Shown one piece after another: positions 11,343 to 33,079 of a DNA stretch of 36,786 nucleotides (the first letter of the stretch is position 1; each line of letters opens with the position of its first letter). The position numbers and the translations under genes were made by a program. The stretch lies in IMG/VR virus record IMGVR_UViG_3300036845_000567, positions 1 to 36,786 of that record; one strand, 5' to 3'. The DNA comes from a virus. The notes beneath the pieces are model-generated. The model was not told where the DNA came from, did no database searches, and saw only the letters and a program-made list of their open reading frames with translations.

Positions 11343-11464
11343 ACGTGTTATCGACCATCTAGTTATAATATAGAAATTTGTTTCTGACTAGAAAATATGT
11401 TAAAATTATATGTAGAAGCAGTGAAAGTGTTTTATCTACGCCATAATTTTAATAGGTATTGCAA
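11343..11464. other. Divergent control region, possible origin
   Basis: This AT-rich spacer separates the minus-strand replication operon from the plus-strand ERF gene. It contains the promoter at 11378-11406 and a TATAAT-like segment (11374-11379 region) that could serve the opposite direction. No clear iteron set or long palindrome is visible. Its position makes it the best place to look for early regulation and an origin. Confidence 0.35.
11378..11406 (+). promoter_or_regulatory. Putative promoter for the ERF gene
   Basis: TTGTTT (11378-11383), a 17-base spacer, TAAAAT (11401-11406). The ERF start codon is 59 bases downstream. Confidence 0.5.
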
Positions 11465-12082
11465 ATGAATAATTATCAGTCTGAGCACTTGAATGAGTTA
11501 GCCGTTGCGTTAGCAAGGGCGCAAGGTGAGATGTTGATCGCGGGAAAAGACCATAAAAATCCATTCTTTAAGAGTATGTATGCTGATTTTGCTACCATAG
11601 TGAGAGCATCAAGGCCGGCTCTGACGAAATATGGGTTGTCGGTTATACAACGCGTGATAACGCAAGATGATGGGGTGGAAGCATTATACACGATGTTGTT
11701 GCATGCAAGTGGGCAATATCTTGAAAGCCGCATGAAAATCAACCCAGTTAAACAAGATGTCCAGAGTATGGGTTCGGCTATTACCTACCTCAAAAGATAC
11801 GCTTACGCGGCAATTGTGGGCGTAACTGCAGCAGATGAAGATGATGATGGTGAATCAGCTACAACACCAGCACGAGAAGTTAAGGCTGCACCAGCTCCGA
11901 AGATTGGTAAAGATCCAATAAGCTTGGACCAATTGAGCGAGCTTGAGTATGTGCTTAAAGATCATCCCGATATAGTGGAACAGGTATTAACCGGTCTCAA
12001 AATAGATAGTCTTGCGGATATGCCGAAGAATAGATACCGATCTTCAATGGATAGAATCCAAGAGATTATTAAAAATAAATAA
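11465..12082 (+). CDS. erf: ERF-family single-strand annealing protein
   Basis: A 205-residue protein. Residues about 25-125 match the ERF family: KNPFFKSMYADFATIV (the phage ERF 'N-P-x-F-K-S-x-Y-A' start), RPALTKYGLSVIQ and GSAITYLKRYAYAAIVGV. ERF proteins form rings that anneal complementary single strands, used in phage genome circularisation and recombination. The C-terminal half, after an acidic stretch (DEDDDGE), is a small helical domain. The ATG at 11465 has AGG at eight bases; a TTG six bases earlier is also in frame. It pairs functionally with the RusA-like resolvase in the divergent operon. A terminator follows. Confidence 0.9.
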   Translation: MNNYQSEHLNELAVALARAQGEMLIAGKDHKNPFFKSMYADFATIVRASRPALTKYGLSVIQRVITQDDGVEALYTMLLHASGQYLESRMKINPVKQDVQSMGSAITYLKRYAYAAIVGVTAADEDDDGESATTPAREVKAAPAPKIGKDPISLDQLSELEYVLKDHPDIVEQVLTGLKIDSLADMPKNRYRSSMDRIQEIIKNK

Positions 12083-17303: not shown

Positions 17304-17501
17304 TTATTCTGTGGATGACAACACCTCAGGAGCTTCTGTTGGGACAGCTTGAGCCGAATTCTCCTTCATAGTGATCATCTGATCTTTAAATTGTTGAAGC
17401 GCATCAATAGCATCGTCATAGGCAGACCCTAAAGGAATTGTTGCCCGGAACAAATGTCCATTAGTAGTTAGTTCAAGCGTAATTTCAAGCTTTTGGTTCA
17501 T
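17304..17501 (-). CDS. Small hypothetical protein in the fibre block
   Basis: A 65-residue protein starting MNQKLEITLELTTNG. GAGGAAG precedes the ATG at 17501, favouring it over an in-frame ATG at 17519. It overlaps the end of the large fibre gene by 17 bases. A beta-hairpin-like start is followed by a helical segment (AYDDAIDALQQFKDQM) and an acidic tail. This could be a fibre assembly chaperone, judging by position after a long fibre gene; not recognised. Confidence 0.6.
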   Translation of the reverse strand: MNQKLEITLELTTNGHLFRATIPLGSAYDDAIDALQQFKDQMITMKENSAQAVPTEAPEVLSSTE

Positions 17502-20115
17502 ATCTTCCTCTGTTTTCAAGATACTCTACTCGCCTCATAAGGCTCGCTATAATATTATGCTGCTTTTGAAGCTCGTTCAAGAGTAGTACAGGGAGATCGT
17601 GGTATCGAACCGTTTCTGGATCATTAACTTTGTTATAGGTTACTATGCCCGGAAACGAAGCGTGTACTTCCTCAGCTATGAGTCCGTACTGTAGTAGCCG
17701 AGTAGGATCGTTTTTATAGTTAAAGGTAACAGGACGCAAGTTCATGATGTTATTGCTAGCGTCATCCATATCTTCAATATTGTCTTTATAGCGACGAGAT
17801 GAAACTACAGTTCCAAGTTGTCCTGTACCGGTATTAATTAATACAGCAGCACTACTTGCGACGGTTACACCGGCTATTCCGGCTACGAAACAGGTATCTT
17901 GTTGCCCCGCACCAGAACCCTGAGTTCCAATTCGTATGACATTAGACTCAGAAACTGTTCCCGCATTCCCAATAACAATATTAGACGATTCAGAGGATGT
18001 ATAATTGCCGCCAGCTGAGTCCCCAACACCTATGTTATCAGCTCCTGTGATAATGAAATTAAGGCAGGTAGCGCCCAAGGCTGTATTATTTGCTCCTGTT
18101 GTTACGGTAAATAGAGCACCAGCGCCAATTGCAGTATTAGCTCCAGCAGAAGTACAAGATACTAGAGCGCCTTCCCCAACGGCTGTATTAGCAGATCCGC
18201 TAGTAAGGCCCAGTAAAGAACTGCGGCCGACACCAGTATTCTCAATACCAGATAGGGCCCCATTTCCTGACAAGGATCCAATAAAGGTATTAGCAGAAGT
18301 ATCAGTCACTTTAAGATCAACCGTTGAACCAGAGGCAACGAATTTAACCGAAGCTCCCGCATTGGAATTAGCATTAAGGGTTATGGTTGCTCCAGTTGCA
18401 GATCCTGTATCGCCATTGATAGTTACGCTTCCGCCAGAAGCTGTGCTTCCCATTTTTCCCGTGACAGGATCAATGATAACAAATTGAGGTGTTCCACCAG
18501 GGGTTACTCCGCCAATGCCCGCTATAAAGCATAGGGTTTGTATGGCAGGATCTCCCAGTCTTATAGTGGTGGTATCGCCAGGGGTTCCTGTATTGCCTAT
18601 GACAATATTAGACCCTTCTGATGCATTGTAAGATGACCCAGCCGCATAGCCAAGAGCAATATTACTATCGCCTCCAGAAAGAGCACCGAGAGCGCCTGTA
18701 CCTATCGCAGTATTCTTATTAGCATCAGCAGCACCTAATGACCCAGCACCTAGTGCAACGTTATTGGAGCCATCGGCTATAGTTGTCATAGACTCATATC
18801 CTATAGCGGTATTAAGCGTACCATTATCTATAGAAGGGAGAGTTCCGTATCCTAGTGAAGTATTTAAATTTCCTGCAACAGAGACATTTCCAGCGTTTAG
18901 GCCCAAGAAGGTATTTCGTAGGGATGAATCGGTAAGGTTAAGACTAACTGTAGAACCAGAAGCAGTGAATTTAACAGATTCCCCAGAAGCAGCTCCGGTG
19001 AACGTTATAGTCGATCCGGTTGCTGAACCAGTGTTGCCATCGATAGTTACAACTCCCGAAGAAGCGGTATTATTTATGGTTATAGAATTTGCGGCATTTA
19101 CAATGCTTATATTAGTCCCAGCAGTCAAATTTGCCCATATAGGAGCGGATGCGGTGGCACCGATAATTACTTGTCCATCAGTTCCAGGATATGACCCCAA
19201 GAATCCATTAGAATCAACAAACATGACCTGCTGATTAGTACCTACAGGAGTATTATAAATACCTGCTATGGCACATGCATCTTGTTCACCAGCACCAGTT
19301 CCCTGAGTGCCTATTCTGATAACATTTGATTCGCCAGTCACACCATCAGAACTAATAGTTATATTGGAGCTTTCTGATGAGGTATATGCAAAGGCTGAAG
19401 CAAAGCCAATAGCTATATTCCCATTGCCCGTTATTAGCCTTCCAAGAGACTGGCTTCCCAAAGCTGTATTGGAAGACCCTGATGTTATAGTGGGAGCCGA
19501 TTCATATCCCAACGCAGTATTATTGATACCATTTGTAGCGTGTAGAAGAGATATATTTCCGACTGCAGTATTCTTGGTACCAGTAACTAATGCGCTTAAT
19601 GCGCTGTTACCAATACCAGTATTCTGAACCGCGGAAGATGGGTTGAGGGTTGTATTTCCTGCCGTTATACCCACAAAGGTATTAGACGGGGGATAGGCAT
19701 ACGCAAATCTGAGTCCACCGAGCTCATATAATCCCTGGCTCCCAGCAGCGTTAGTAGCCGGCAAGTTGATATTAGGGGTTACAGCTACATTTACTGTGTT
19801 GGGTGCCATGGCAGAGGTGACTATATTTGCACCACCCAGCAGATTTATGACGCCCATTACAGGAGTAGCAGTGCCCGAATCGGTCACAATAGATGATATT
19901 GCTCCACTGGCATTCATGGATACCCACATGGCCACATTATCAACGATAGAAGTTATTATATAGGGAGTATTCGTTGGTTCATCTATCCATATGGTTCCTA
20001 TAGATGCCCTATCGTGGGTGGTAGGAGCTCTTTGTGAAACTATGGGAGCATTGGGAATACCAATAAGCGCCTGGCTTAACCCGTAGGCAACATTGCCCGG
20101 TTGAAATACTGACAT
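17485..20115 (-). CDS. Long tail fibre with S74 chaperone domain, three shaft modules
   Basis: An 876-residue protein with AAGGAGG before the ATG at 20115. Residues 1-75 are the virion-attachment module (NVAYGLSQALIG, RAPTTHDRASIGTIWIDE) shared with the next gene upstream. Three tandem shaft modules follow, each with NTF[VLI]G.., AIG/ALG head-like repeats and a C-x-[IV]AGI block; between them lie GNTGSATG linkers. From about residue 772 (SSRRYKDNIEDM) it ends in a Peptidase_S74 chaperone with LRPVTFNYK, YGLIAEE and a terminal coiled coil. The chaperone is normally released by self-cleavage after trimerisation. It shares its modular plan, with one module more, with 14346-16418. Confidence 0.9.
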   Translation of the reverse strand: MSVFQPGNVAYGLSQALIGIPNAPIVSQRAPTTHDRASIGTIWIDEPTNTPYIITSIVDNVAMWVSMNASGAISSIVTDSGTATPVMGVINLLGGANIVTSAMAPNTVNVAVTPNINLPATNAAGSQGLYELGGLRFAYAYPPSNTFVGITAGNTTLNPSSAVQNTGIGNSALSALVTGTKNTAVGNISLLHATNGINNTALGYESAPTITSGSSNTALGSQSLGRLITGNGNIAIGFASAFAYTSSESSNITISSDGVTGESNVIRIGTQGTGAGEQDACAIAGIYNTPVGTNQQVMFVDSNGFLGSYPGTDGQVIIGATASAPIWANLTAGTNISIVNAANSITINNTASSGVVTIDGNTGSATGSTITFTGAASGESVKFTASGSTVSLNLTDSSLRNTFLGLNAGNVSVAGNLNTSLGYGTLPSIDNGTLNTAIGYESMTTIADGSNNVALGAGSLGAADANKNTAIGTGALGALSGGDSNIALGYAAGSSYNASEGSNIVIGNTGTPGDTTTIRLGDPAIQTLCFIAGIGGVTPGGTPQFVIIDPVTGKMGSTASGGSVTINGDTGSATGATITLNANSNAGASVKFVASGSTVDLKVTDTSANTFIGSLSGNGALSGIENTGVGRSSLLGLTSGSANTAVGEGALVSCTSAGANTAIGAGALFTVTTGANNTALGATCLNFIITGADNIGVGDSAGGNYTSSESSNIVIGNAGTVSESNVIRIGTQGSGAGQQDTCFVAGIAGVTVASSAAVLINTGTGQLGTVVSSRRYKDNIEDMDDASNNIMNLRPVTFNYKNDPTRLLQYGLIAEEVHASFPGIVTYNKVNDPETVRYHDLPVLLLNELQKQHNIIASLMRRVEYLENRGRYEPKA

Positions 20116-20130
20116 GATGCCTCCTTAAAA

Positions 20131-20859
20131 TTAAGCAACCGTCACTATAGCAGTCCATCCAGTAGCACCATTAGTATTTATAAAGGCTCGGTTATTAACC
20201 CCAGTTCCATCAGTTCTTAAGAATAATGATCCTTGAGGAAGAGTAAGAACGCCCGTAGGATCGCCCGCACCCGAGAAGATGCTGAGGTTGCCCGTGAAAG
20301 TAAGAGTTCTTGTATTGGCTATATTGACACCACCAACAGTTAAACTTAAGTTACCGCCCGGAATTACCACGTTCCCCGTAGCATTGCCTATCTGTACGGC
20401 TCCAGTTCCCGGAGCTACACCGATATGAGTAGCAAATGCGCCAGCAGAATTGAGATCTATTTCCCCGCCACTAGCTTGAAGCGGTCCTGATATAGCAGTG
20501 CCTGATGTGGCGTTACCGATATTTACCAGACCCGTCCCACCAGTTCCAATAGTAGTAGTGGCTGCTCCGGTAATATTAATATTAGTAGTACCCGTTAATG
20601 AAATAGGCCCAGGAGTAACTACAAGTGAAGAAAATACACCAGCAGCTCCTCCACCACCCACAGCGATCCAGGTAGCTACGTTAGCTATAACGCTGGCAAG
20701 GATATATACCGTGCTTGTAGTGGTATTAGACCAAATGGTTCCTACCAAAGCATAATCATGAGTCGTTGGTGCCCTTTTGGAAACGATAGGTACTGGAGCA
20801 TCAGGTATAAGTGCCTGGGTTAATCCGTATGATACATTTTGACGTTGATTTACTGACAT
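20131..20859 (-). CDS. Short fibre protein with the shared attachment module
   Basis: A 242-residue protein. The ATG at 20859 has AGGGAGAG upstream; an in-frame ATG at 20928 is not supported. Residues about 1-70 (NVSYGLTQALIPDAPVP, SKRAPTTHDYALVGTIW) match the N-terminus of the long fibre at 17485-20115. The rest is a low-complexity beta shaft (GTGGTGLVNIGNATSG) ending in a small domain. It has no S74 chaperone. It is the first gene of the fibre block and could be the adaptor to which the other fibres bind. Confidence 0.8.
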   Translation of the reverse strand: MSVNQRQNVSYGLTQALIPDAPVPIVSKRAPTTHDYALVGTIWSNTTTSTVYILASVIANVATWIAVGGGGAAGVFSSLVVTPGPISLTGTTNINITGAATTTIGTGGTGLVNIGNATSGTAISGPLQASGGEIDLNSAGAFATHIGVAPGTGAVQIGNATGNVVIPGGNLSLTVGGVNIANTRTLTFTGNLSIFSGAGDPTGVLTLPQGSLFLRTDGTGVNNRAFINTNGATGWTAIVTVA

Positions 20860-20947
20860 GGTTTCTCTCCCTTTAGAGTAAATTTTTTTATCCCCATCAT
20901 GATTGTATGGTACACAGAAATAAATCAAGCTTTATTTATTATTTGTG

Positions 20948-20975
20948 TTGACAATTGCAATGAGTAATGTATGAT
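20948..20975 (+). promoter_or_regulatory. Strong promoter for the ribbon-helix-helix genes
   Basis: A perfect TTGACA (20948-20953), a 16-base spacer and TATGAT (20970-20975). It transcribes the plus-strand genes at 21017-21485, opposite to the structural genes on both sides. Confidence 0.75.
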
Positions 20976-21016
20976 GAGTTATAGAATAGATTGTTACATA
21001 AGGAGATTTTAAGAAT

Positions 21017-21220
21017 ATGGTACGAATGTATAAGAAAAAGATAGAACAAATTATCCCCAAGGAAAGCAGAGTTGGAAGGAAGCGTATTAGTTTAGATATA
21101 CCTACTCCGCTCCACAATATGCTTCTTGAGGGAGCGCAGCAGAGTAATTGCACAATAACGATGTATGTCATTCGATCTTTAAGGGATCGACTTAAAATGG
21201 AAGGAATAGAAAATGAGTGA
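21017..21220 (+). CDS. Arc/CopG-like ribbon-helix-helix DNA-binding protein
   Basis: A 67-residue protein with AAGGAG eleven bases before the ATG. Residues 21-62 fit a ribbon-helix-helix: strand RKRISLDIP, helix 1 TPLHNMLLEGAQQ, a turn with SNCTIT, and helix 2 MYVIRSLRDRLK. RHH dimers insert the strand into the DNA major groove and usually repress phage or plasmid genes. A basic N-terminal arm (MYKKKIEQ) precedes it. It is the first gene after a strong promoter, and overlaps the start of a paralogue that carries a membrane helix. It may control its own promoter and the flanking late blocks. Confidence 0.8.
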   Translation: MVRMYKKKIEQIIPKESRVGRKRISLDIPTPLHNMLLEGAQQSNCTITMYVIRSLRDRLKMEGIENE

Positions 21221-21485
21221 TGTTTTTTATTTAATTATTAATATAGTATCTGCCGCAATAACCTTATATTGGGCCATAGATTATTTGAGGCGCTACTTAA
21301 AAAGGAATAAGAAAAACGATCAAGTTCCAACAAAAAATAGAATAAGTGCCAATGTGCCTGTAGCTCTCTACCAGATGTTAGTAGATGCTACAACTCGCCA
21401 CAAATGCACTATTACTGCCTATATTATTGGCGCTATAACTGAACGGCTACAACGAGAAGGGATGCAAGATGTACCTACCTCTTGA
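21213..21485 (+). CDS. Membrane-anchored ribbon-helix-helix paralogue
   Basis: A 90-residue protein that overlaps the preceding RHH gene by 8 bases. Residues 4-24 are a hydrophobic transmembrane helix (FYLIINIVSAAITLYWAI), then a basic linker (LRRYLKRNKK). Residues 42-82 are clearly homologous to the preceding protein: NRISANVPVALYQML, KCTITAYIIGAI and ERLQREGM align with RISLDIPTPLHNML, NCTITMYVIRSL and DRLKMEGI. An RHH fused to a membrane helix could tether DNA or sequester the soluble partner by heterodimer formation. That role is inferred; the homology is visible. Confidence 0.8.
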   Translation: MSDVFYLIINIVSAAITLYWAIDYLRRYLKRNKKNDQVPTKNRISANVPVALYQMLVDATTRHKCTITAYIIGAITERLQREGMQDVPTS

Positions 21486-21540: not shown

Positions 21541-22770
21541 TTATTGAAAAAGCTCAAAATCACCAGATTCTTGTGATTCCTGTTTGCCTATTTCTTGATC
21601 TAGTTTACTTATTTGTCGCGTGAATACCGCTGCATTTTCTGATGCGGCAGCCTTAAGCGCAGCAAGATAATGCTTCCTGATAGAAGGACTTCTTAATAGT
21701 TGTTCGGTTGTTTCAAGGGCCTTGAGACCCACATAGCCTTTTGCTGCAAGTCCTGCGGCTGCACCAACACCTACTTTACCAGCACCTAATAGGGCAGCTG
21801 TTCCAGCGTATTTAAGTATATGCTTATTGACGTGTTTCTTAATCCATTGAGAGATAGGAGCAGAATGATATATTCCCTGCCACATATCATCCGCTTGTTT
21901 TAGGTTCTTTACGAATTCTGGATTTACTTTGCTATAGCCAGATATTGCATCTTTGATTGAATTATTTAATTCGGGAAGCGTGCCGAATATTCCTTTTAAC
22001 CTTCCCTCCTTATCAATAATATCGCCGATAATTTCATTTAGTTCTTGTTTGCTCTGGAGAAGGTCGCTGACGGCTATTTTACCGCCACTAGTTATTTTGT
22101 CTTGTAACTGACCTACGAGGCTGCCCAGTTCCTTTTTACCGAGTCCTTCTTTAAATCCTTTGGATAATCGATGTTCTACTTTATCTATAATAGGTCTTAA
22201 GGAAGCGGATTCAACTTGCGCTCCCTCAGGTAATAAGGATTCTGCCTTTTTATAGGCATCTCGAGCTACGTCTTTAAGCTTAGGAGTTCCCCATAAAGAG
22301 GTGCCGAGAATTGTCCCAGCTTTTACTAGGTCGCCTGCCCCTTCTGAACCAGTTATATGTTTTGTAGCCAGTCCCGCTATATTTCCAATTCCAGATATCT
22401 TTGCTGCATTAGCTAATCCCGTTCCACCAACAACTAGAGGAATAAAATCTGATATAAACTCATCGCCAAATTTCTCAATATTTCCTTGGGGTTCTAGGTA
22501 TCCATTAGCCCCGGGCCGCCCTATCTCTCTAATATTTTCAGGGGTAGGAAATATAGTATTACTAGAAACGAGAGGGCTTCCTGTTATTGCACGGCTTCCC
22601 AGGTTCAATAATCCCCTTCCCGCAGATTCGATGGTTCCGGGTAAGCCAGCTGTTGACTCGATGGCTCGGGCACCAAGACGGGCAACGTTTCTGATCCCAG
22701 TTCCCAATAACGATTCATTGGAAGTTTTATTGGCAGAAGTAGGGAGCTCTTCAAATAGTTCGAATTCCAT
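21541..22770 (-). CDS. Putative DNA ejection (internal virion) protein
   Basis: A 409-residue protein whose ATG overlaps the stop of the gene upstream (TAATG). Gly/Ala/Leu-rich hydrophobic stretches (AGLPGTIESAGRGLLNLG, AGTAALLGAGKVGVGAAAGL) alternate with long amphipathic helices (LGKKELGSLVGQLQDKI). This composition and position, third in a row of such genes after the tail hub, fit the P22-type ejection proteins that leave the virion with the DNA and form a channel across the envelope. No enzymatic motif. The call depends on context. Confidence 0.6.
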   Translation of the reverse strand: MEFELFEELPTSANKTSNESLLGTGIRNVARLGARAIESTAGLPGTIESAGRGLLNLGSRAITGSPLVSSNTIFPTPENIREIGRPGANGYLEPQGNIEKFGDEFISDFIPLVVGGTGLANAAKISGIGNIAGLATKHITGSEGAGDLVKAGTILGTSLWGTPKLKDVARDAYKKAESLLPEGAQVESASLRPIIDKVEHRLSKGFKEGLGKKELGSLVGQLQDKITSGGKIAVSDLLQSKQELNEIIGDIIDKEGRLKGIFGTLPELNNSIKDAISGYSKVNPEFVKNLKQADDMWQGIYHSAPISQWIKKHVNKHILKYAGTAALLGAGKVGVGAAAGLAAKGYVGLKALETTEQLLRSPSIRKHYLAALKAAASENAAVFTRQISKLDQEIGKQESQESGDFELFQ

Positions 22771-31067: not shown

Positions 31068-32426
31068 TTATAAGGTAAGCGTGGCACGCAGGTTAATTAC
31101 CCACAAATCGTTGGTGATTCGGGGAACTTCTGCGAATTTATAACCAACACTTGCGTTAAGAGCTAAAGGCCCATCATAGATTGGCGGACGGTAGATAAAG
31201 CTTGCGCTATATCCGTCTTGTTCTATACAAGCATAGGCATCCATACCCACGCAGAAAATGTTGTACACATTTGCGTTAAGATATGATGCATTTGGCGTCA
31301 CAGAGCCAATAGACGATACTAGGAATCTTAAATTTCCAATGGCCCCCCACTCTGAACGGAGAGCGTTCATAGGAGCTGGATATTGGTTCTTTTGGATGAA
31401 TCCTGCAACGTTGTCTAAGTTACCTGTTAGCTGGGTAGAACAGAGAGCAAAATACGCATCACGAACTGGTGCTGTCGAATCTGTTACTTTAGTGACCTAT
31501 TGCTAGGCGGGGAAACCTCTTCGGATCTCCCTCTCTATGTTTCCATAGAGGTCAGACTATCGCATCCCCTTGCGGGGTTTCTTCACTTAGTCGTTCACGC
31601 TGCAAGGCAAATGCCAGCTTGCGCCCTGTCACCCCGAGGGGCTTCCAAGTCAATCAGAAGAAATTTAACGTCGGCACATATTTTACCGAACCTATCCTCA
31701 CCTTCCATGTTGTCCATGATCGTGTACGCATTATTGTTTAATAGCGTACGAACCACGGTATCAACATCAGATCGGGTGATTTCTGTCGGATTGTCTCCGT
31801 TTACACCACCCGTGCAGTTGATGAAAGCAGCAGTGCCTGCCAACATGTCTCTGGTAAGTTGGTCTTCCGTTTGGCGTAGAGAAACGCCCAATCGAGCAGC
31901 ACATTCATTAAGAACGGGATCCTGATTTTGGAGTGTAACCTGCTCATTAAGTGTTACATAAGTGCCATAGAAGCTGATTTTGGCGTCAATATCTATAGCC
32001 GTTAGATTTTGGGGAGGTGGTGTCACACCAGAATTTCCTAGTGGAACCATGGCGGTATTTAAGGGATTATAGCGTCGCATACGCAGCGTTGTACCGCCGT
32101 TGCGAGGCATAGCTTTCATCATTGCCGGGATCTTCAATCTGTTACTTTTGTGACCCTTTCGGGCGGGGAAACCTCTTCGGATCTCCCTCTCCATGTCGCC
32201 ATGAAGTTCAGACTATCGCATGCCATTACTGGCCCTTCTCACTTAGTCGTTCACGGTGCTTTCGCTTCCGCCTTGTAATCCTCTGGGGACGTCCAAGTCA
32301 ATTAGAGAAAGTTTTAGATCCACAAGTTTACCAATGGATCATATTAGGCACTGGGACACTCAAGAGCTTATAGCTGAAGCTCTGTTGTATCGGCGCTGGC
32401 AATGTACTTGTCGTAGTAATCGACAT
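31068..32426 (-). CDS. Major capsid protein, N4-gp56 type, three exons joined around two group I introns
   Basis: Exons on the minus strand are 32426-32334 (31 codons), 32134-31685 (150 codons) and 31475-31068 (135 codons plus stop). Joined, they give a 316-residue protein running ...VPVPNMIH|KIPAMMKAMPRNGG... and ...MEGEDRFG|TAPVRDAYFALC..., with smooth capsid sequence over both joints. LRMRRYNPL, YVTLNEQVTL, GNLRFLVSS and similar blocks are those of the N4-gp56 capsid family. The ATG at 32426 follows GAGGAG. Without splicing, exon 1 ends in a stop one codon past the junction and exon 2 stops inside intron 2, so capsid synthesis requires removal of both. The capsid lies between scaffold and decoration genes, as usual. 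Exon limits come from manual intron folding. Confidence 0.88.
31476..31684 (-). ncRNA. Group I intron 2 of the capsid gene (209 nt)
   Basis: 5' exon TCGGT pairs with guide GCCGA (31675-31671), placing a U-G pair at the splice site after 31685; the intron's last base is G (31476). P3 is TTTCTTC/GAAGAAA (31663-31657 with 31584-31578). P7 is GACTA (31592-31588) with TAGTC (31559-31555). P8 is CCCC-GCAA-GGGG. P9 is CTCTATG-GAAA-CATAGAG. Two more hairpins (P9.1, P9.2) lie before the 3' end. No ORF fits inside. Its 3' half shares a 29-base identical stretch with intron 1. The fold, done by eye, has every core helix expected of a compact ribozyme. Confidence 0.88.
32135..32333 (-). ncRNA. Group I intron 1 of the capsid gene (199 nt)
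   Basis: 5' exon GATCCAT pairs with guide GTGGATC (32323-32317), a 7-bp P1 ending in the U-G pair that marks the splice site after 32334; the last base is G (32135). P3 is CTTTCTC/GAGAAGG (32311-32305 with 32240-32234). P7 is GACTA (32248-32244) with TAGTC (32215-32211), P8 GCCA-GTAA-TGGC and P9 CTTCATG-GCGA-CATGGAG. P9.1 and a GAAA-capped P9.2 follow. There is no ORF inside. Compared with intron 2 the helices are kept while their bases differ, which is direct evidence of structure. Confidence 0.9.
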
Positions 32427-32617
32427 GTTTGCTCCTCGAAGAGAGGTTGCACAGATATATGTTTGGGAGCGAGCGATGCTCAGTACGGCTCTTGAGGGGG
32501 CGAGACTCACTACGCCCAGATGGGACTTGCGAATTCCCTATAACGCGCTGCTATGTTAGTATGTTTTTACAGATAAAGTCTAGAGTTAGCGCCCAGAGAC
32601 AAAGTAAAGAGGAAATA

Positions 32618-33079
32618 ATGTCCATAAAGATAAGAGAATTTAGAAGAGATCATACGCCTGAAGAATGTGCGTATATCGCTGGAATAATTGATACATGCGC
32701 TAGCTTTAAAATAAGCAAAAATCCAGATTGGTCATATGCTATGATGATAAGCTCTACCAATCGATCATTGATTGATTATATGGACAGAGTTATGGGTACA
32801 AAAGTGCTCTGTGAAGATACAACTCCTAGGCCTGGTCGCATGCATAATGATAAACTATACATGTCCAATAAAAGATATGTGTGGAGCGTTTACGGGATAT
32901 TATTAGACTATGTGTTAGAAATAACCAATAAATATTTAAATATTCAAAAGGGTAAATCAGACCTCATGATTAAATTTAGAAACACCTATAATAAGTCCGG
33001 TTTGCGAACTATTGTAACGCAAGACATTATTAAACAAAGAGAAGATTTGTTTGCAGAATTTCGAAAACTATATTTATAA
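32618..33079 (+). CDS. Free-standing LAGLIDADG-family protein with altered active site
   Basis: A 153-residue protein on the opposite strand to the surrounding head genes. AGAGGA precedes the ATG at 32618. Residues 19-30 (YIAGIIDTCASF) are a single LAGLIDADG motif followed by strand FKISKN, and the later YVWSVYGILLDYVLEI block plus IQKGKSDLMIKF fits the rest of that fold, as in dimeric homing endonucleases. The catalytic acid of the motif (second Asp) is Cys27, and the following Gly is Ala, so DNA cleavage is doubtful. Its end overlaps the scaffold stop by six bases, and it lies 191 bases upstream of the intron-split capsid gene. It could be the partner nuclease of the introns, a decayed copy, or a maturase-like RNA-binding relative. 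Confidence 0.85.
   Translation: MSIKIREFRRDHTPEECAYIAGIIDTCASFKISKNPDWSYAMMISSTNRSLIDYMDRVMGTKVLCEDTTPRPGRMHNDKLYMSNKRYVWSVYGILLDYVLEITNKYLNIQKGKSDLMIKFRNTYNKSGLRTIVTQDIIKQREDLFAEFRKLYL

Follow-up and report, generated by a model that had tools for sequence, protein, structure and literature searches.

Why would a phage pair a small soluble DNA-binding protein with a copy of it that is apparently fixed to the membrane? The question is raised by two plus-strand genes, here called A and B, in IMG/VR virus record IMGVR_UViG_3300036845_000567, the whole of which (36,786 bases) is the window analyzed here. Gene A (21017-21220, +) encodes a soluble Arc-like ribbon-helix-helix (RHH) protein of 67 amino acids and has RHH counterparts at the same site in relatives, and gene B (21213-21485, +) encodes a 90-amino-acid paralogue of A with a predicted membrane anchor. 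The first-pass annotation, made from the sequence alone, had located both genes correctly and described them as overlapping; the overlap is 8 nucleotides, with B beginning inside the last codons of A (junction ATGAGTGA). Comparison with related phages separates a general case from a single one: the conserved element of this phage family is a cassette at a fixed site with a soluble RHH gene at its head, while the anchored RHH protein is a single case.

By sequence and predicted structure, A and B are sister Arc-type RHH proteins. The two share 37% identity over 46 amino acids (E 3e-13, for a single comparison) and form a sister pair with support of 98/87 in a tree of 78 RHH rows, which has only 56 columns and leaves many forks unresolved; a tandem duplication of A is thus shown by the tree, with branch lengths of 1.48 for B and 0.78 for A. 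A Pfam scan of both proteins gave no match above threshold, and A matches the PHROG family phrog_582, "Arc-like repressor", weakly (E 0.015), as do 26 of 32 family members at E≤0.1. The family profile matches seven PDB sequences at E≤1, and every one is an RHH protein (ParG, an antitoxin, ORF56, 56B, Arc, ParD, and a CopG family member). In the AlphaFold2 models, a strand-helix-helix domain of about 45 residues is present in both A (pLDDT 86; helices 30-42 and 47-62) and B (pLDDT 91; a helix spanning 2-33, then RHH helices 50-63 and 67-81), with the strand extended and unpaired in these monomer models. The top PDB matches of the B model are RHH proteins, Arc being first (Z 6.1 over 45 residues, root-mean-square deviation 1.1, identity about 10%). 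A Z of about 6 is low by DALI standards, but this is a short domain, and the highest-ranking matches are RHH domains that align almost from end to end; Arc, PutA, and CopG fall within residues 39-87 of B, and we place its RHH domain at residues 40-87 (21330-21473, +). The homology and the fold proposed earlier for the pair are therefore borne out in both proteins. If the assignment of DNA-facing residues is carried over from Arc, as we assume, B reads R-x-S-x-N where A reads R-x-S-x-D, a polar asparagine at the third position being found in six of 32 members, B included, and the core is similar in both. Because B keeps R-x-S, with N for the D of A, and a similar core, a shared operator and mixed A:B dimers are plausible.

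The N-terminal membrane helix and basic linker of B, also part of the first-pass annotation, hold up as a prediction. Residues 4-22 (21222-21278, +) are hydrophobic and free of charge between D3 and D23, with a 19-residue mean hydropathy (KD19) of 2.01, a value reached in 379 of 20,000 residue shuffles (p about 0.02 from composition alone), and they lie within the helix 2-33 predicted at high confidence. RR, KR, and KK follow the hydrophobic stretch. Because these basic residues come after the helix, we predict an N-out, C-in topology with the RHH domain in the cytoplasm. Could the hydrophobic part result from a mis-chosen start? The start codon of B is credible because GAAGGA lies 7 nucleotides before its ATG, no other start has a Shine-Dalgarno sequence, and the junction is common to relatives: an 8-nucleotide overlap between the RHH gene and a second gene also occurs in several of them, and loci L060, L167, and L181 share the junction of B, with a membrane protein as second gene. 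A mis-chosen start is rejected on these grounds. As for where the helix came from, the highest scores of residues 1-38 of B (46 and 44) are against the gene that ends the cassette in loci L017 and L016. Shuffled B queries reached at most 45, with 46 attained in 0 of 40, a control that is too kind, as shuffling breaks up the hydrophobic block, and a kinship of the helix with these genes is a lead only.

Relatives were reached through neighboring structural genes. Neither A nor B alone retrieved a relative from viral_contigs, B found nothing convincing among phage records (best E 0.8), and a neighboring 409-amino-acid protein retrieved no relatives as a search query. A 760-amino-acid neighbor gave 56 loci, and with an alignment of a 181-amino-acid neighbor (g181b) 80 of 315 were kept in one scan and 80 of 243 in a second; with a scan of genome_contigs added, the set came to 191 loci, many of which repeat the same contig. 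Two markers, g181b and a homologue of the first tail gene, occur together at 110 loci, and in every one of these an RHH open reading frame (ORF) lies between the two on the strand opposite the tail gene; the other 81 loci do not combine the markers in an arrangement that could be used and were left out of the count. By the last 100 nucleotides before the tail gene, 73 of the 110 are distinct, with at least one pair (L041 and L168) still representing one contig. The RHH profile was built from L003-L058 and the window, so that L059-L193 are independent of it. Every locus with the tail marker has an RHH match, a count biased by the fact that this marker was made from genes adjoining RHH genes; in an independent count, the RHH profile matches all 24 genome-sized records, the window included. 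One relative (L023) has three RHH genes at the site and another (L161) has two. In a subgroup, g181b points the opposite way with respect to the tail genes (L041:12364-12930, -, and 18 other loci), with the RHH gene remaining divergent from the tail gene.

The slot behind the RHH gene is far more variable. Between the last RHH gene and the structural gene that follows lie 1 to 2,925 nucleotides (72 sites, window included); this gap is below 100 nucleotides in nine relatives, one contig being counted twice, and at six loci (L025, L041, L043, L099, L130, and L133) a gap of at most 64 nucleotides leaves almost no room for cargo. Second genes, where found, mostly encode membrane proteins without an RHH domain, and the others encode exported-looking proteins or HNH endonucleases. 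A transmembrane-like stretch (KD19≥1.8) occurs in 18 of 30 second genes; among 126 control ORFs of similar size within neighboring genes, 22 have one (Fisher p 7.5e-6). Among 18 cargo proteins, a PHROG scan picked out HNH endonucleases and families without a known function and, weakly, two "membrane protein" families. A lysis cassette was considered and rejected, as no lysis family is among the PHROG matches listed for these 18 proteins. At the cassette site of three loci, an RHH domain is fused behind an HNH_3 endonuclease domain (L037:16900-17379, L038:17788-18264, and L052:17146-17625, -).

Sought in other genomes, the pair itself did not recur: the soluble RHH gene is at every readable locus, and the anchored twin is in this record only. 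A hydropathy screen of the fetched loci found no tether on any other of about 78 RHH domains. Among RHH ORFs at the site with at least 19 residues before the domain, three have a pre-domain stretch above a hydropathy of 1.2 (L177, 1.40; L124, 1.29; L021, 1.76), and L124 and L021 were rejected as further membrane-anchored RHH proteins, the hydrophobic stretch lying upstream of the likely start in both. Because it is unique to this record, the tether is not a feature conserved across the phage family. No paper on a phage transmembrane RHH protein was among those listed by our searches of the open PubMed Central library.

The promoter noted earlier ahead of the pair is likewise confirmed. A sigma-70-type sequence, TTGACA-16-TATGAT (20948-20975, +), reads into A and B and agrees with the consensus at 11 of 12 positions, although promoter-like sites are not in excess in the region as a whole. 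The Shine-Dalgarno sequence of A, read from the sequence, is AAGGAG (21000-21005, +), rather far from the ATG at 11 nucleotides. We surveyed 59 of 72 intergenic regions (those of 90-250 nucleotides without ambiguous bases) for sigma-70-like promoters. Toward the RHH gene, such a promoter was found in 29 of 59 at p≤0.05 and in 38 of 59 at p≤0.1; toward the tail gene, the corresponding counts were one and three. The enrichment is toward the RHH gene only, so that the cassette has a host-type promoter of its own, whereas none is seen there for the tail gene.

How might these parts work together? The reading that we favor, tentatively and at somewhat less than an even chance, is that A represses its own cassette and that B is a cassette membrane protein with a copied RHH domain that keeps A or the operator at the membrane. 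The A/B pair would then be the form taken in this phage by an accessory cassette that an RHH gene leads; the cassette occupies a fixed position among the structural genes, runs counter to them, and is transcribed from a host-type promoter of its own. As the core regulator, A would most likely repress that promoter as an Arc-like dimer or tetramer. The slot behind it usually holds small membrane proteins, and here a tandem duplicate of A may have come to lie behind a single membrane helix, giving B. With B in the inner membrane and its RHH domain predicted to be cytoplasmic, B homodimers, or A:B mixed dimers made from the same overlapping message, could hold repressor or operator DNA at the membrane, and the output of the cassette would follow the amount of B there. 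The payload may be superinfection exclusion or another membrane effect, by analogy with SieA of phage P22. Autoregulation in the family fits the enrichment upstream of the RHH genes of the word TGTACA (12 of 59 regions vs 2.7 expected; picked from all 6-mers and ranked behind two -35-like words) and of inverted repeats. Several points nevertheless weigh against this reading. The enrichment of inverted repeats is mild (mean p 0.35; 14 of 48 at p≤0.1), and the window holds no convincing operator, its best inverted repeat having a p of 0.87 and its best direct repeat a p of 0.43. By the criteria used, a second gene was found at 30 of 71 relative sites and none at 41 of 71. Additionally, B is found in this record alone, so selection on it is not measurable, and its longer branch is also expected of a decaying copy.

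Two variants keep B in the membrane but assign it a different task. A more elaborate one, which we regard as doubtful, makes B an anchored repressor subunit that brings both A, through mixed dimers, and the operator to the inner membrane; the cassette would then report on the condition of the membrane, such as the arrival of a second phage. Just as doubtful is a simpler one, in which B is only the membrane protein of the cassette, an exclusion protein for example, its RHH domain serving dimerization with DNA binding lost; this would suit both the predominance of membrane proteins without RHH among second genes in relatives and the longer branch of B, but B has kept the arginine and serine of the DNA-facing strand, with a polar asparagine in the third position. 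We think it rather unlikely that the RHH gene instead regulates the divergent late tail genes, with the cassette riding along and B shifting this control to the membrane. The RHH gene is divergent from the tail fiber gene throughout the 110 loci, even where the gap behind it is at most 64 nucleotides; the divergent gene defined the site, however, making the association partly one of construction, and promoters toward the tail gene are not in excess (three of 59 at p≤0.1).

The first-pass annotation had suggested that B could hold phage DNA at the membrane or draw A from its operators in mixed dimers. That interpretation is partly supported, in that RHH paralogues, one membrane helix, and a strong promoter are present; the kept DNA-facing pattern and core of B allow but do not prove either role. 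A tether for positioning, replicating, or packaging phage DNA seems to us improbable. RHH proteins such as ParG serve partition, ParG is among the PDB matches of the profile (a sequence match only), and a membrane helix is joined here to a DNA-binding fold, but B is absent from sister records and no clear repeated operator lies upstream in the window. Least probable of all is an addiction module in which the RHH protein is an antitoxin and the second gene encodes a small membrane toxin, with B as an anchored antitoxin or a fusion. Toxin-antitoxin operons commonly have an RHH gene first and an overlapping second gene, and Pfam ParD is matched by 11 of 32 members at E≤0.1; many RHH folds, though, look antitoxin-like whatever their role. 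Moreover, no toxin family was found among the 18 cargo proteins scanned against PHROGs, several of them in cut form and with no toxin library, and in several relatives the RHH gene is present where the gap leaves no space for a second one.

The cassette is bounded on one side by the gene for the 409-amino-acid protein (21541-22770, -; from the ORF list), which closes it on the structural side and has no Pfam or PHROG match, and on the other by the divergent first tail fiber-like gene (20131-20859, -), with an ATG at 20859 and a listed ORF that extends to 20928; only A and B fit between them. Two successive tail fiber-like genes (17485-20928, -) share the N-terminal motif YGLxQAL..PIV..RAPTTHD, as if duplicated. 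Elsewhere in the window, the major head protein gene looks interrupted twice (31490-32260, -): a pair of similar stretches, each with the ending "...gagagggagatccgaagaggtttccccgcc", occupies roughly 31507-31600 and 32161-32260. The first of these lies within an Rfam group I intron match below the cut-off (21.7 bits, gathering 50, E 0.0084), and nothing matches at the gathering threshold. Just upstream, on the opposite strand, is an ORF resembling an HNH endonuclease (32429-33079, +; phrog_5046, E 8e-4). The window also encodes an Erf-like single-strand annealing protein (11459-12082, +; phrog_2324, E 3e-40).

No tyrosine integrase was found in the 24 genome-sized records, and the phage family looks non-integrating; lysogeny by another route may occur. 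A scan of genome_contigs gave a single contig of 33,600 bases from a Methylococcaceae bin. This contig, on which the RHH gene is likewise present, is of phage size and may be a free phage in the bin. That a large family of uncultivated, apparently non-integrating phages should have an RHH-led cassette at one unvarying position suggests an immunity-like region beyond the temperate phages, and the site offers a simple address for collecting many small unknown phage membrane proteins. The anchored twin would illustrate in compact form how gene duplication brings a DNA-binding protein to the membrane. If B is an anchored repressor subunit, it would constitute a one-component membrane-borne switch made from the RHH fold, in a phage without sign of lysogeny.

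Among known systems, the RHH cassette site resembles, in place and content, the immI region of P22, a temperate phage with the RHH protein Mnt in addition to Arc, although this is a likeness and not a proven relationship. In P22, mnt, arc, ant, and sieA lie between genes 16 and 9 (PMC10883804). SieA has about 162 amino acids and three predicted transmembrane helices (PMC10883804) and is not reported to have an RHH domain. The cassettes of the window and its relatives likewise lie in the late gene cluster, here beside a tail fiber-like gene; on the other side, P22 has gene 16, for the last ejection protein, where the window has the 409-amino-acid protein. The window cassette would work much like immI, but because it has neither the antirepressor gene ant, which is present in P22, nor a protein like SieA, we do not file it as immI; B, at 90 amino acids, has one predicted transmembrane helix, and here it is the RHH protein itself that is anchored. 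With Arc repressor and phrog_582, B has fold and size in common and differs in its low sequence identity and its N-terminal membrane helix. PutA, a large flavoenzyme without a transmembrane helix, leaves DNA for the membrane when acting as a repressor. In Escherichia coli, it combines an RHH domain, repression of its own regulon, and membrane association (PMC5293562). B is similar to PutA in joining an RHH domain to the membrane, but does so in 90 amino acids and with its own predicted transmembrane helix, uniting in one protein the two usual components, the RHH domain and the membrane helix.
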